A DNA stretch of 45,174 nucleotides from Terriglobia bacterium (lineage in GTDB: Bacteria > Acidobacteriota > Terriglobia > UBA7540). The translations under genes were made by a program, and so were the position numbers. The notes below the pieces were generated by a model that did no database searches, was not told the DNA's origin, and saw only the letters and a list, made by a program, of their open reading frames with translations. The stretch is from assembly GCA_020072655.1 (NCBI GenBank), contig JAIQGH010000006.1, forward strand, positions 1 through 45,174, written 5' to 3'. Shown here one piece after another: positions 12,127-28,600 of this stretch. Numbering within the stretch: position 1 is the first letter of the stretch; every line of letters begins with the position of its first letter.

Positions 12127-13980
12127 ATGCGCGAACCCTTCCTGGCAAGGCTGGAGAAGCGAGTCATCGTCTGTGACGGGGCGATGGGCACGATGCTCTA
12201 CTCCAAGGGCATCTCCTTCGCCCGTTGCTTCGATGAGTTGAACCTTTCCACTCCCCAGCTTGTCAAGGAAATCCATGTCGGATATGTAAAGGCCGGGGCG
12301 GAGGTCATCGAGACCAACACCTTCGGTGCGACCCGGTTCCGCCTTGAGAAGTTCAACTTGGCCGACCAGGTTCGGGAGATCAACCTGGCCGGCGCGCGCC
12401 TGGCGCGCGAAGTGGCGGGTGAGGATCTCTACGTCGCCGGCTCCGTCGGCCCCCTCGGCATTCGGCTCGAGCCGCTGGGCGCTACGTCGTTGGAGGAGGC
12501 CCGAGCAGCCTTTCGGGAACAGATCCAGGCGCTCGTCGAAGGCGGCGTAGATCTCATCATCATTGAGACCATGGCAGACCTGAATGAAGCTCACCAGGCG
12601 CTGCTCGCGGCGCGAGACACAAGCGCTCTCCCAGTCGTCGTGCAGATGACGATCCAAGATGACGGCGCGACGCCCACCGGGACGCTCCCCGAGGAATTCA
12701 CCCGGCAACTCGATGCCTGGGGTGCCGATCTCATCGGCGTGAACTGCAGTGTCGGCCCGGCCACCGTACTCGAAGCTATCGAGCGCATGGCGGGCGTCAC
12801 CCAGAAGAAGCTCTCCGCCCAACCCAACGCCGGCCTGCCGCGCACGATCGAGGGCCGCAACATCTACCTCTGCTCGCCGGAGTACATGGCCACCTACGCG
12901 CGGCGGTTCATCCAGGCCGGAGCACGCCTGGTCGGCGGCTGCTGCGGCACGACGCCGGACCACATCCGCGCCATCAAGGCTGCCGTGCGCTCGCTCGCGC
13001 CGCAGCCCACGCGGACGATGGTGGAAATAGCCGCTCGCCAAGTCCAGGCGCTCGAGCCACCCCCCGTCGAGCAGCGCTCCCGGCTGGGCGAGAAGCTGGC
13101 GCGCGGCGAATTTCCGGTGCTCGTGGAGATTGTCCCGCCCAAGGGTTCCGATCCCACGAAGGAGATCGAAGGCGCGCAGTACCTGCTCGCCCAGGGCGTG
13201 GATGCTGTCGACATCCCCGATGGCACGGGCGCCACGGCCCGGATGAGTGCTCTCACGCTGGCCGCGATTCTCCAGCACCGCGTGGGGATTGAGGTCCTGC
13301 TCCACTACAGCTCGCGCGACAGAAACGTGCTGACGATTCAGTCCGACTTCCTGGGCGCGTACGCGCTGGGGCTGCACAACATCCTGGCCCTCACGCGGGA
13401 CACGGCCCAATATTCCACGGTCCTCGAATCCGGCGTCTTTGAGGTGGATGCCATCGGGCTGGTGAATATCCTGAACAACCTCAACCGGGGCCTGGATGTG
13501 GGGGCCAACCCCTTGGGCACACAGACCGGGTTTCTCATCGGCGTCGGACTCAACCCTTACGCGATGGATGTTGATGAAGAGTTGCGGCGTTTTGAATACA
13601 AGATTGCGGCCGGCGCCAACGTTGCCGTCACGCAGCCCATCTTCGACGCGGAGCGGCTGAGGCAGTTCTTGGAACGCCTCGCCACCGCCGGGTTAGCCCG
13701 GCTTCCTGTGATCGCCAGTCTCTGGCCGCTGACGAGCTATCGCAATGCGGAATTCATGAACAATGAGGTTCCGGGCGTCTCCGTGCCGCCTGCGGTGATG
13801 GAGAGAATGCGCCAGGCCGATACCGGCGAGCGGGCCCGCGCCGAGGGTCTCAAGATCGCCCAGGAGACCTTGCTCGGCCTGCGCGACCTCGTTCAGGGTG
13901 TCCAGATTGCTGCGCCGTTCGGCCGCTACGCCTTGGCCGTGGAGGTGGCGCAGGTTCTGAACCCAAAGGCTAAAGAGTAA
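12127..13980 (+). CDS. yitJ: Bifunctional homocysteine S-methyltransferase / methylenetetrahydrofolate reductase
   Basis: 617 residues. Residues 1-300 are a homocysteine methyltransferase barrel: CDGAMGTMLY, ETNTFGATR and the zinc cysteines in GVNCSVGP and GGCCGTTPDHIRAI. From about 318 (GEFPVLVEIVPPKGSDP) a MetF-type reductase barrel follows, with HYSSRDRN and NILALTRD and TQPIFDAE. The same fusion is known from Bacillus YitJ. It would make methyl-THF and pass the methyl group into methionine synthesis without or beside MetE/MetH. The last codons (PKAKE) lie inside the left arm of a heptamer repeat (13965-13997), so the C-terminal tail is repeat-derived. Confidence 0.93.
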   Translation: MREPFLARLEKRVIVCDGAMGTMLYSKGISFARCFDELNLSTPQLVKEIHVGYVKAGAEVIETNTFGATRFRLEKFNLADQVREINLAGARLAREVAGEDLYVAGSVGPLGIRLEPLGATSLEEARAAFREQIQALVEGGVDLIIIETMADLNEAHQALLAARDTSALPVVVQMTIQDDGATPTGTLPEEFTRQLDAWGADLIGVNCSVGPATVLEAIERMAGVTQKKLSAQPNAGLPRTIEGRNIYLCSPEYMATYARRFIQAGARLVGGCCGTTPDHIRAIKAAVRSLAPQPTRTMVEIAARQVQALEPPPVEQRSRLGEKLARGEFPVLVEIVPPKGSDPTKEIEGAQYLLAQGVDAVDIPDGTGATARMSALTLAAILQHRVGIEVLLHYSSRDRNVLTIQSDFLGAYALGLHNILALTRDTAQYSTVLESGVFEVDAIGLVNILNNLNRGLDVGANPLGTQTGFLIGVGLNPYAMDVDEELRRFEYKIAAGANVAVTQPIFDAERLRQFLERLATAGLARLPVIASLWPLTSYRNAEFMNNEVPGVSVPPAVMERMRQADTGERARAEGLKIAQETLLGLRDLVQGVQIAAPFGRYALAVEVAQVLNPKAKE

Positions 13981-14043
13981 AGGACCAAGGTCAAAGGAAT
14001 TCAGTCGGCCCTTTACTCTTAAGCCTTTACCCTTTAACCTTTG
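13965..14043. repeat. Heptamer repeat pair (AAAGGNT units) forming two facing arms
   Basis: The left arm 13965-13997 reads as units AAAGGCT, AAAGAGT, AAAGGAC, CAAGGTC. The right arm about 14010-14043 reads on the minus strand as AAAGGTT, AAAGGGT, AAAGGCT, TAAGAGT, AAAGG. The arms can pair (15 of 16 bases around CTAAAGAGTAAAGG). The MTHFR stop codon is inside the left arm, and xseB starts 8 bases after the right arm. Confidence 0.75.
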
Positions 14044-14050
14044 TCTGAGC

Positions 14051-18932: not shown

Positions 18933-19145
18933 GCAGGAGTCAGAAGTCAGAATCCAGAATTCAGAAGTCAGCAGCCAGGAGGCAGGAGCCAGAATCAGAA
19001 CGCCGCAACGTTCGCGCGCGAAATCCATTGGGGCGAGTTTGGGCGGGACTCCGTGTCGGTTCCAAGGGCTGTTCGCCGATTCGGCGCCCGGGCAACAAGG
19101 AAGGGAGTTAGGGGACCTTTCTTCTGAATTCTGAATTCTGATTCC
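18933..19145. repeat. Heptamer repeat pair (TCAGAAT-type units) between nadK and lysA
   Basis: The left arm 18933-18995 is nine heptamers (GCAGGAG, TCAGAAG, TCAGAAT, CCAGAAT, TCAGAAG, TCAGCAG, CCAGGAG, GCAGGAG, CCAGAAT). The right arm 19121-19145 is the reverse complement type: three TCAGAAT units on the minus strand. The lysA stop codon abuts the right arm. About 120 bases of ordinary sequence without a gene lie between the arms. Confidence 0.8.
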
Positions 19146-24337: not shown

Positions 24338-24338
24338 G

Positions 24339-24498
24339 TCAGTTGTCAGTTGTCAGTTGTCAGTTGTCAGTTGTGAGTTGTCGGTCGTCAGTCGCCAGAA
24401 GATTGCGTGAGCATGTTTTGGACGCCAAGGCTCAAGCAACCACACACGCCGTTCCCGAGAGTCGCCCAGGGAACTGAGAACTGACAACTGATAACTGA
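24339..24498. repeat. Heptamer repeat pair (TCAGTTG units) between tsaB and rimI
   Basis: The left arm 24339-24394 is five perfect TCAGTTG units followed by TGAGTTG, TCGGTCG and TCAGTCG. The right arm 24471-24498 is GAACTGA, GAACTGA, CAACTGA, TAACTGA, the complement of the same unit. The left arm begins one base after the tsaB stop. The right arm ends about 10 bases before the rimI ATG. Confidence 0.85.
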
Positions 24499-26064: not shown

Positions 26065-26899
26065 ATTCCAGCGGCAAGGCCCTTTCCGGAGAGGCATCTA
26101 TATCCTCCCGAGCCTCTTTACGGTCGGGACGCTCGTCTGCGGCTACTACGCCGTCCTCTCCACGCTCAGGGGATCACAACTGCTGGCGGCAGGAATTGGC
26201 GCGGGGTTGAGCCTCGTCAGTCTCGACAATGCCGCCAAGGCCATCGGCTGGGCGGTGCTCTTTGACGGCTTGGACGGGCGCATCGCTCGCCTCACCAATT
26301 CTACGTCCGACTTCGGTCGGGAGTTCGACTCGCTCGCCGATGTGATTGCGTTCGGCATCGCGCCGGCTTTTCTCGCGTATGCCTGGGGTGTCCGCTCGCT
26401 CGAGGTGGTCTCTGGCACGCAACTCGTTCAGCACATTCGCCAGATCGGCTGGATCGTCACGTTCACGTTCGTGATCTGCGGGGCAGCCCGGCTGGCGCGT
26501 TTCAATATCGACACCACCAAGGGACTGGGCGACCGCCGCTATTTCGTCGGCTTGCCCATTCCGGCCGCGGCCGGGGTGGTGGCCGCGCTGGTCCACTGGG
26601 CGAAGGATCCGGTAAACGACTGGACGTTTGGGGTCGGCTGGCTGGGCGTCGTCGCCATCCTGTCGTTCTTAATGGTAAGCCGGCTCCGTTACCCGAGCTT
26701 CAAAACTCTTGACCTGCGTCGCCGCCGCCCCTACGTGGCGATCATCCTCATCGGCTTGGTGGTCTGGGCCATCTGGGCGTTCTCCGAGCCGGTATTGCTC
26801 ACGATTGCTCTAACCTATGGCCTCTCGGGGCCCGTAGCACGGCTGACCTCGCGGTTCCGCCCTCACCCGCCAGCGCCTGAAGAGGTCCACGCTTCATGA
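26033..26899 (+). CDS. pssA: CDP-diacylglycerol-serine O-phosphatidyltransferase
   Basis: 288 residues, multi-pass membrane protein. The CDP-alcohol phosphotransferase motif is complete: DGLDGRIARL, then GREFDSLAD with the metal aspartates. GLPIPAAAGVVAALVHW is another family block. It makes phosphatidylserine, the substrate of the upstream Psd. The start overlaps psd and the stop overlaps the next gene (ATGA at 26896-26899), so the three are translationally coupled. Confidence 0.94.
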   Translation: MSLELPERKPKFQRQGPFRRGIYILPSLFTVGTLVCGYYAVLSTLRGSQLLAAGIGAGLSLVSLDNAAKAIGWAVLFDGLDGRIARLTNSTSDFGREFDSLADVIAFGIAPAFLAYAWGVRSLEVVSGTQLVQHIRQIGWIVTFTFVICGAARLARFNIDTTKGLGDRRYFVGLPIPAAAGVVAALVHWAKDPVNDWTFGVGWLGVVAILSFLMVSRLRYPSFKTLDLRRRRPYVAIILIGLVVWAIWAFSEPVLLTIALTYGLSGPVARLTSRFRPHPPAPEEVHAS

Positions 26900-27978
26900 C
26901 GTCTTCCCGCCAGGGTTACCGCGTCGGCGTTCTCGGCGCCTCCTCGCTGCTTGGCCAAGAACTGCTGCGAGTGCTCCAAGACCGCCACTTCCCTACCTCC
27001 CGCCTGCTGACTTTCGAGGAGGAAGAGGATCTCGAACTGCCGATCCTCGACTTGGCGGGACAGGCTGAGTTTGCGCGCGCCGATGAGGAGCTGTCGCCGG
27101 GTGATCTGGATTTCCTTTTCCTTGCTGGCCGCAGCAGTTCCGCCTCGCTGGGGGGGGAATTTCTCCGGCGGGCCCTGGAGGCCACCCGCCAACCCGCGGG
27201 CGGGGCGGGCGGGCCTCGGGAGCTCAGCCCCTGGATCATCGACCTCGCGGAGGGCATCGAGGAAAAGGAAACGCCGGCCGCGACCCTGCGCATCCCCTTC
27301 CTGGAGCGGGCCGGGCGGACCCTCCATCCATCACCCGAGTCGCGGAGGCTCGGTTCCCCTCACCCGGCCGCCATCGTCCTGAGTGCCTTGCTCTCCCGGC
27401 TCACGGCACGCTTCCATCTGCACTCTGCCGTGGCCCAGGTCTTTTTTCCGGTCTCGGAAATCGGCCCGCGTGGCATCGAGGAGCTACAGAAGCAGGCGGT
27501 CAACTTGCTGAGCTTCCAAAAGATCCCGCAAACCGTGTTCGGAGCGCAGTTGGCGTTCAACCTCCTCGGCCGGCTGCCTGGCAAACAAGCCGTCAGCCTG
27601 GAGTGTTTTGAGGACCGCATCCGCCGTCAGTTGCGACAATACCTGACAGAGCCGGTCCCCCTGCCCGCCTTGCAGCTATTTCAGGCGGCGGTGTTCTATT
27701 CGCTGGCCGTTTCCCTTTACGTTGAAACCGATCAGGCCATGTTGCCCGAGGCACTTGAGGCCGCCCTGCAGGGCGAGCATGTGCAGCTTCGACGCCGGTC
27801 CGAACCCCCTCCCTCGCCGGTCGAGGCGGCTGGCTCGGGTGATATTTTGGTGGACAACGTCACCGCCGACCAGGAGCATCCCACGGGCTGCTGGATTTGG
27901 TCAGTCGTCGACAATATCCGTCTGGCCGCGGAAAATGCCGTTGAGATCGCCGGAACCCTTCAGGAGCGACTGCAGTAA
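26896..27978 (+). CDS. Aspartate-semialdehyde dehydrogenase-like protein lacking the catalytic Cys
   Basis: 360 residues. The N-terminus has an Asd/ArgC Rossmann start (YRVGVLGASSLLGQELLRVL), and the C-terminus aligns with Asd (DNIRLAAENAVEIAGTL). Where Asd has the N-P-N-C-T nucleophile region, this protein has SPHPAAIVLSALLSRL (about 153-168) without Cys. It is therefore unlikely to act on aspartyl phosphate. It sits between pssA and lptE in a coupled cluster, far from lysine or threonine genes. A structural or regulatory role at the envelope is possible but not shown. Confidence 0.75.
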   Translation: MTSSRQGYRVGVLGASSLLGQELLRVLQDRHFPTSRLLTFEEEEDLELPILDLAGQAEFARADEELSPGDLDFLFLAGRSSSASLGGEFLRRALEATRQPAGGAGGPRELSPWIIDLAEGIEEKETPAATLRIPFLERAGRTLHPSPESRRLGSPHPAAIVLSALLSRLTARFHLHSAVAQVFFPVSEIGPRGIEELQKQAVNLLSFQKIPQTVFGAQLAFNLLGRLPGKQAVSLECFEDRIRRQLRQYLTEPVPLPALQLFQAAVFYSLAVSLYVETDQAMLPEALEAALQGEHVQLRRRSEPPPSPVEAAGSGDILVDNVTADQEHPTGCWIWSVVDNIRLAAENAVEIAGTLQERLQ

Positions 27979-27989
27979 AGCAACGGACG

Positions 27990-28128
27990 AATTCTGAATG
28001 ATGAATGATGAACTCCCATCGTGCCATGGCATATACGGCGCAGCGCGGCGACCCCTGAGCAATGCCGCTGGACGCGCGCCCGCTCTCTGTCTCCTGCCTT
28101 TTGCCTTCTGCCTTCTGGCTCTTTCCTT
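27990..28128. repeat. Heptamer arrays inside the 5' end of lptE
   Basis: 27990-28013 is a short array of GATGAAT-type units that supplies the lptE start codons (27998 and 28001). 28094-28128 is five heptamers (CTGCCTT, TTGCCTT, CTGCCTT, CTGGCTC, TTTCCTT) read in frame as the hydrophobic core of the signal peptide. Confidence 0.75.
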
Positions 28129-28600
28129 AGCCTGCGGCTATCACGTCGCGGGGCGCGGGGACCGCCTGCCCACCGACGTCAAGACCATTGCTGTGCCCAT
28201 TTTCACCAACTCCACCAGCAAGTACCGGATCGAGCAGCGAGTTTCGGCGGCGGTCACCCGCGAGTTCATCGAGCGCACGAAGTTCCGCGTCACCCCCGAG
28301 CCGGCGGGCTCCGATGCCGTCTTGAAAGGGGAGATCAAAGACATCCGCTCGGGGGTCATCACTTTCGACCTTTCGACGGGCCGCGCCACCACGCTCCAGG
28401 TGCAGGTGGTCGCGGCTGTTGATCTCGTTGACCAGCACACCAAGAAGGTCCTTTTCTCCAATCACAACTACATCTTCCGCGAGGAGTACCAAATCAGCCA
28501 GAACCCTACCGCGCTCTTCGAGGAAGAGGATCCGGCGCTTGACCGCCTCTCGCGCGACATCGCCCGCACGCTGGTCACAGAGATTCTGGAGAATTTCTAA
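27998..28600 (+). CDS. lptE: LPS-assembly lipoprotein LptE with repeat-derived signal peptide
   Basis: 200 residues. After a hydrophobic stretch (about 27-45), LSLACGYHVAGRG gives a lipobox-like Cys followed by the GYH start typical of LptE. KTIAVPIFTNSTSKYRIEQ and the later NPTALFEEEDPALDRLSRD match the LptE (RlpB) fold. LptE plugs the LptD barrel in the outer membrane for LPS insertion. The predicted n-region is long. The ATGs come from a heptamer array and the hydrophobic core from another, so the exact start is uncertain. The gene lies between the Asd-like gene and holA, and lptE next to holA is a common order. Confidence 0.88.
   Translation: MMNDELPSCHGIYGAARRPLSNAAGRAPALCLLPFAFCLLALSLACGYHVAGRGDRLPTDVKTIAVPIFTNSTSKYRIEQRVSAAVTREFIERTKFRVTPEPAGSDAVLKGEIKDIRSGVITFDLSTGRATTLQVQVVAAVDLVDQHTKKVLFSNHNYIFREEYQISQNPTALFEEEDPALDRLSRDIARTLVTEILENF

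Follow-up and report, generated by a model that had tools for sequence, protein, structure and literature searches.

We examined a 45,174-nucleotide (nt) stretch of contig JAIQGH010000006.1 from Terriglobia bacterium assembly GCA_020072655.1 (hereafter the window), in which the gene for the lipopolysaccharide (LPS)-transport lipoprotein LptE opens within short tandem DNA repeats. The lptE reading frame (27998–28600, + strand, 200 aa) matches PF04390 with E = 6.8e-15 (56.2 bits versus a curated cut-off of 23), is the only copy in the genome, and lies between an aspartate-semialdehyde-dehydrogenase-like (asd-like) gene upstream (26896–27978, + strand, PF02774, its TAA stop ending at 27978) and holA on the other side. 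Genes for LptD and signal peptidase II (SPII) were both found in the genome, which is a metagenome-assembled Acidobacteriota genome with 'group 13' and Terriglobia metagenome assemblies as its closest named relatives. The LptE domain itself (28178–28582, + strand) falls in the mature protein.

The 5' end of lptE is built, on the same strand, from two heptamer arrays flanking a core. The left array (27995–28012; unit TGAATGA, 2.6 perfect copies, TGAATGATGAATGATGAA) holds ATG 27998 and ATG 28001, which are the only in-frame start candidates (ATG, GTG or TTG) before the mature Cys, in agreement with the earlier note, which had a second array supplying the ATGs. The core (28013–28085) would encode a long n-region, and the right array (28086–28120, TGCCTTY units) encodes the hydrophobic h-region. 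Within the latter, residues 32–40 (LLPFAFCLL, 28091–28117) are read from in-frame CTGCCTT-TTGCCTT-CTGCCTT, just as had been proposed. A c-region and lipobox (..LSLAC, 28121–28135) follow, with the predicted lipidation Cys at 28133–28135; the segment matches the lipoprotein pattern PS51257, which describes a lipobox leading to a Cys after a charge-free hydrophobic stretch. This Cys is unchanged across 14 LptE proteins of the family, and after the lipobox comes the mature protein's invariant CGY.

We considered whether this is simply an ordinary signal peptide rich in Leu, Phe and Cys, with DNA that appears repetitive through chance or composition. Low complexity is typical of signal peptides, ordinary ones are found in many relatives, and constraint within one related genus (g3, below) is weak, all of which would fit this idea. 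However, the right array shows lag-7 identity at 25/35 positions within 42 nt, a value matched by only 3 of 20,000 dinucleotide shuffles. Perfect lag-7 runs of at least 11 matches occur three times in the window, the left array among them, against a shuffle expectation of 0.05, and no perfect run of at least 11 was found in the window at lags 4–6, 8–11 or 13. The two arms of lptE are different heptamers and are not complementary to each other, and the purity of the right array is only ~80%. Nevertheless, the lptE units match intergenic arrays of the same genome (control 0–1), no other of the 293 hydrophobic N-termini surveyed below is array-encoded, and relatives provide a perfect (TTTTGCC)5 at locus L107 and long TTCTGCC arrays at L071 and L077, which largely refute chance. 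We regard this alternative as very improbable.

Period-7 arrays are a general feature of the intergenic DNA of this genome (G000). In a sample of ~1.0 Mb, part of it picked for contigs bearing TTCTGCC arrays, we counted 73 arrays of period 7, compared with 0–2 for each of periods 5, 6, 8, 9 and 10; shuffled sequence gave none. Most arrays (65/84) were intergenic, with a further 11/84 touching the 3' end of a gene. Within gaps, the first array began a median of 4 nt past the stop codon and the last ended a median of 15 nt ahead of the next start. Arrays frequently formed inverted pairs sharing one unit, which changed from gap to gap, and strong complementarity was seen in 17 of 32 pairs. A rule that the purine-rich arm always leads was rejected, being true for 14 of 28 codirectional pairs and reversed in six. 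The exact period of 7, the gap-specific units and the inverted arms running from stop to start may reflect a templated or strand-switching replication error.

The window holds further two-armed heptamer elements between genes, at 13960–14042, 18934–19141 and 24338–24498. Each has inverted arms and a unit of its own, and the element at 13958–14045 is predicted to form a stable hairpin (z = −3.2). Elsewhere in the genome, an rdgB/HAM1-like gene (named by eye; L204 18633–18663, G000:C153, ~38.6 kb) has its predicted start within a TTGTCAC array (LSLVNRHSPLVLHLASANLGK), and its start region has apparently been remodelled by this array. Genome G009 carries in-frame heptamer arrays within gene bodies (a truA-like gene, L170 4203–4238; a protein kinase-like gene, L231 8817–15325), which are insertions tolerated by the coding sequence.

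Recruitment of such arrays is rare: among 293 hydrophobic N-terminal segments in the ~1 Mb sample, lptE alone was array-encoded, so repeats make export signals only occasionally in this genome. That many signal peptides are array-made was accordingly rejected here, as well as for samples of genomes G009, G003 and G020, where the best matches were arrays upstream of cytosolic genes and one lipoprotein with an FN3 domain.

A comparison with the sister species G001, where the lptE 5' end lies at a contig edge (L031), bears on what is being conserved. The left array is kept (CTGAATGATGAATGA), as is the start MMNDE(L/F)P, and the segment LCLLPFAFCLL differs by seven synonymous and no replacement changes (P = (13/33)^7 = 0.0015). 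Between the arms, the alignment of the core collapses, with a net difference of 3 nt that preserves the frame. The lptE gap RNA showed no unusual structure or hairpin (z = −0.34), which leaves RNA structure without explanatory value for the conservation of the gap. Because the changes are exclusively synonymous and the RNA is not unusually structured, the array appears to be conserved as a peptide.

These observations also weigh on a second alternative, in which the array is kept for a role in DNA or RNA (regulation, RNA structure or translation control) and merely overlaps the frame, LptE starting elsewhere or at a non-canonical codon. The largely intergenic location of the arrays and their proximity to start codons would suit such a role, as would the absence of a net positive charge in the G001 n-region; translational roles have also been proposed for TAACTGA repeats in Beggiatoaceae (MacGregor 2015, PMC4679880). 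Against it stand the lack of another canonical in-frame start, the unfolded gap and the 7:0 ratio of synonymous to replacement changes. In addition, three array-made signals in relatives (lptE at L080 and L107, and an OpuAC-type gene in G009, all described below) have their ATG well ahead of the array and a short n-region, so the array there must be translated. Taken together, we consider a purely nucleic acid role unlikely.

Among 28 lptE genes tested for period 7 in the h-region, all from the same family of soil Acidobacteria, 13 were significant (p < 0.025); the signal peptides of the remainder are ordinary and end at the same Cys. The units vary: TTCTGCC in L071, L077 and L086, CTGTCTA in L075, and TTTTGCC/TTTTGTC in L080. 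L075 has a full two-armed element in frame, its purine-rich arm encoding KQESGVGRRDTGYW and its pyrimidine arm CLLSTVYCLL, and in L080 the left arm has been lost and the right array alone remains as the h-region of a compact MPMKRAERFPSFCLLSFTLCFLVWAGAC. In genes with a short spacer, such as L010 and L013, the asd stop and lptE start overlap as ATGA, and the signal peptide measures ~20–25 residues. The earlier note had named non-repetitive signal peptides in relatives as evidence that would tell against its proposal; these do occur (e.g. L073, L076 and L079), but they share only the Cys and are otherwise unrelated in sequence, which indicates that an ancestral signal peptide was replaced, not that none existed.

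The trait extends beyond the family. The lptE at L107 (53% identity) encodes MPRSILDFCLLPFAFCLLPFFSSC from the perfect (TTTTGCC)5 mentioned above; pssA lies directly upstream, with the lptE ATG 1 nt past its stop, and asd was not found at this locus. L107, from a distant lineage, is an independent-looking case of a putatively array-made lptE signal peptide. A TCTTTTC-type array occupies lptE at L099/L100, also outside the family, and L123 and L131 were not counted as firm cases. A strict class-wide scan of 399 genomes, with a pattern requiring three TTYTGCC units and TGCGGC, returned only the lptE locus of the window.

Whether these cases trace back to a single ancestral recruitment within the family, with later drift of the unit, or to repeated recruitment is a sub-question of the replacement scenario. 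On a tree of asd, lptE and holA the array trait required 8 changes, and the number of origins is uncertain because the family backbone is weakly supported. The members of g3 and g9 are all of the xCLLLSxxCLLLFPAC type and form one supported clade, as a single origin would predict. However, the backbone among g1, g4, g17 and g16 lacks resolution and the non-repeat genes L073, L076 and L078 are interspersed; L107 and L099/L100 fall outside the family, units differ, the CLL-to-Cys distance ranges from 6 to 9 residues, and OpuAC was recruited separately. A single ancestral event seems to us a realistic possibility, at somewhat under even odds.

The separate OpuAC case came to light when 39 family genomes were scanned, without bias, for TTYTGCC arrays a short way before TGCRGC. 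There were nine matches, six of them lptE and another an OpuAC-type substrate-binding lipoprotein (PF04069) in G016. Its layout is that of lptE in the window: the left array contributes the ATG and the right array the h-region. The G009 orthologue likewise has an array-made h-region (MKLSLLTLSLLRFRLLPTAFCLLLASFLLPAC), and most other readable OpuAC orthologues have ordinary signal peptides. Matches L286 and L288 were rejected, as no signal peptide was encoded. In the G020 FN3-domain lipoprotein (L261 2488–3525), a CCCGATT heptamer element lies within the n-region of the signal peptide.

Why an intergenic repeat would be usable in this position follows in part from its period. As 7 is not divisible by 3, an array of any 7-bp unit encodes one seven-residue peptide, rotated, whichever frame is read; the right array of lptE accordingly gives versions of CLLPFAF/CLLPSAF in all three frames, and such an array (FCLLPSA/FCLLPFA) could be used in whatever frame it is entered. 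The earlier note's extension of this argument, that pyrimidine-rich arrays always yield a hydrophobic peptide, was too strong. Heptamers with at least five pyrimidines are stop-free in 88–100% of cases but strongly hydrophobic in only 19–30%; those with six or seven are all stop-free, yet mean hydropathy is above 1.5 in only 28–30% of them. Among 84 real arrays, 39 carry a stop in at least one frame of the pyrimidine strand. TTCTGCC and TTTTGCC belong to the favourable (stop-free, hydrophobic) units.

We therefore propose, at a probability of roughly 80%, that an intergenic two-armed heptamer element has been domesticated as the Sec/SPII signal peptide of LptE, replacing the ancestral one. An element of the kind that fills the gaps of this genome would have come to lie in the gap separating lptE from the asd-like gene, displacing the ancestral start and signal peptide. 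The frame would now open in the left array; the core would form an n-region of unusual length, and the pyrimidine-rich right array would supply the h-region just ahead of the old lipobox Cys. The repeat-encoded peptide would then direct Sec export and processing by SPII. The earlier note's suggestion of an export signal made from repeats thus gains from conservation in the sister species, recurrence in the family, L107 and OpuAC, and is restricted by its rarity in this genome (1/293).

Several observations weigh against this proposal. The PROSITE lipoprotein rule asks for a Lys or Arg within the first seven residues; MMNDELP, the first seven of LptE in the window, contains neither (Arg occurs at 17, 18 and 26), and the L107 signal peptide, beginning MPR, does carry one. 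The net charge of the n-region is ~+1 here and ~−1 in G001, and no clear Shine-Dalgarno sequence precedes ATG 27998. The ratio of nonsynonymous to synonymous polymorphism (pN/pS) in the h-region of genus g3 is 0.4–1.0, indicating weak constraint there. Finally, all of the evidence consists of DNA sequence from metagenome-assembled genomes.

Recruitment of repeats into coding sequence is already known. Rickettsia palindromic elements, reportedly described by Ogata et al. in 2000, are said to be inserted in frame into conserved genes; these are a conserved palindrome, unlike the lptE element, whose core is not conserved and whose arms neither pair nor give the gap a notable fold. The small mobile repeats RU-1 and RU-2 of enterobacteria (Delihas 2007, PMC2759123) resemble the present case in that relatives have unrelated signal peptides, but they are 103–168 bp of fixed sequence, whereas here 7-bp arrays of many unrelated units are involved, the frame is irrelevant, and the gene encodes a conserved lipoprotein of LPS transport, sampled in many species. 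Another parallel is provided by the TAACTGA heptamer arrays of Beggiatoaceae, Cyanobacteria and Bacteroidetes, which are intergenic direct repeats of 7 bp just 5' of start codons, with few in open reading frames (ORFs) and those mostly near termini (MacGregor 2015, PMC4679880). They differ in having one dominant unit and a proposed translational role, no signal-peptide role being described in the portion consulted, while here units are many and often form inverted pairs. Borg amino-acid tandem repeats similarly generate new protein segments, but their ORF unit lengths are always divisible by three (PMC9879509), in contrast to the unit of 7 here. The literature searched contained no description of signal peptides made of heptamer arrays, and their use in this role would be a new form of repeat recruitment.

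These findings suggest that junk-like intergenic repeats can turn into ready-made signal peptides. More speculatively, and with rather low confidence, two-armed elements might be inherently signal-peptide shaped in every frame, the purine-rich arm being charged (e.g. GRRQKAE) and the pyrimidine-rich arm hydrophobic (FCLLPSA). Any gap element before an exported protein could then be converted, as may have happened repeatedly (lptE several times, OpuAC and the FN3 lipoprotein), providing a way for export signals of bacteria to arise and be replaced. These loci also indicate that coding DNA can tolerate a repeat unit indivisible by three when each frame yields a usable peptide. For this family, lptE offers a natural series in which intergenic repeats would have replaced the signal peptide of a lipoprotein conserved in LPS transport; the origin and turnover of signal peptides are otherwise hard to trace, and a single family with ordinary, newly repetitive and decayed forms side by side makes them testable.
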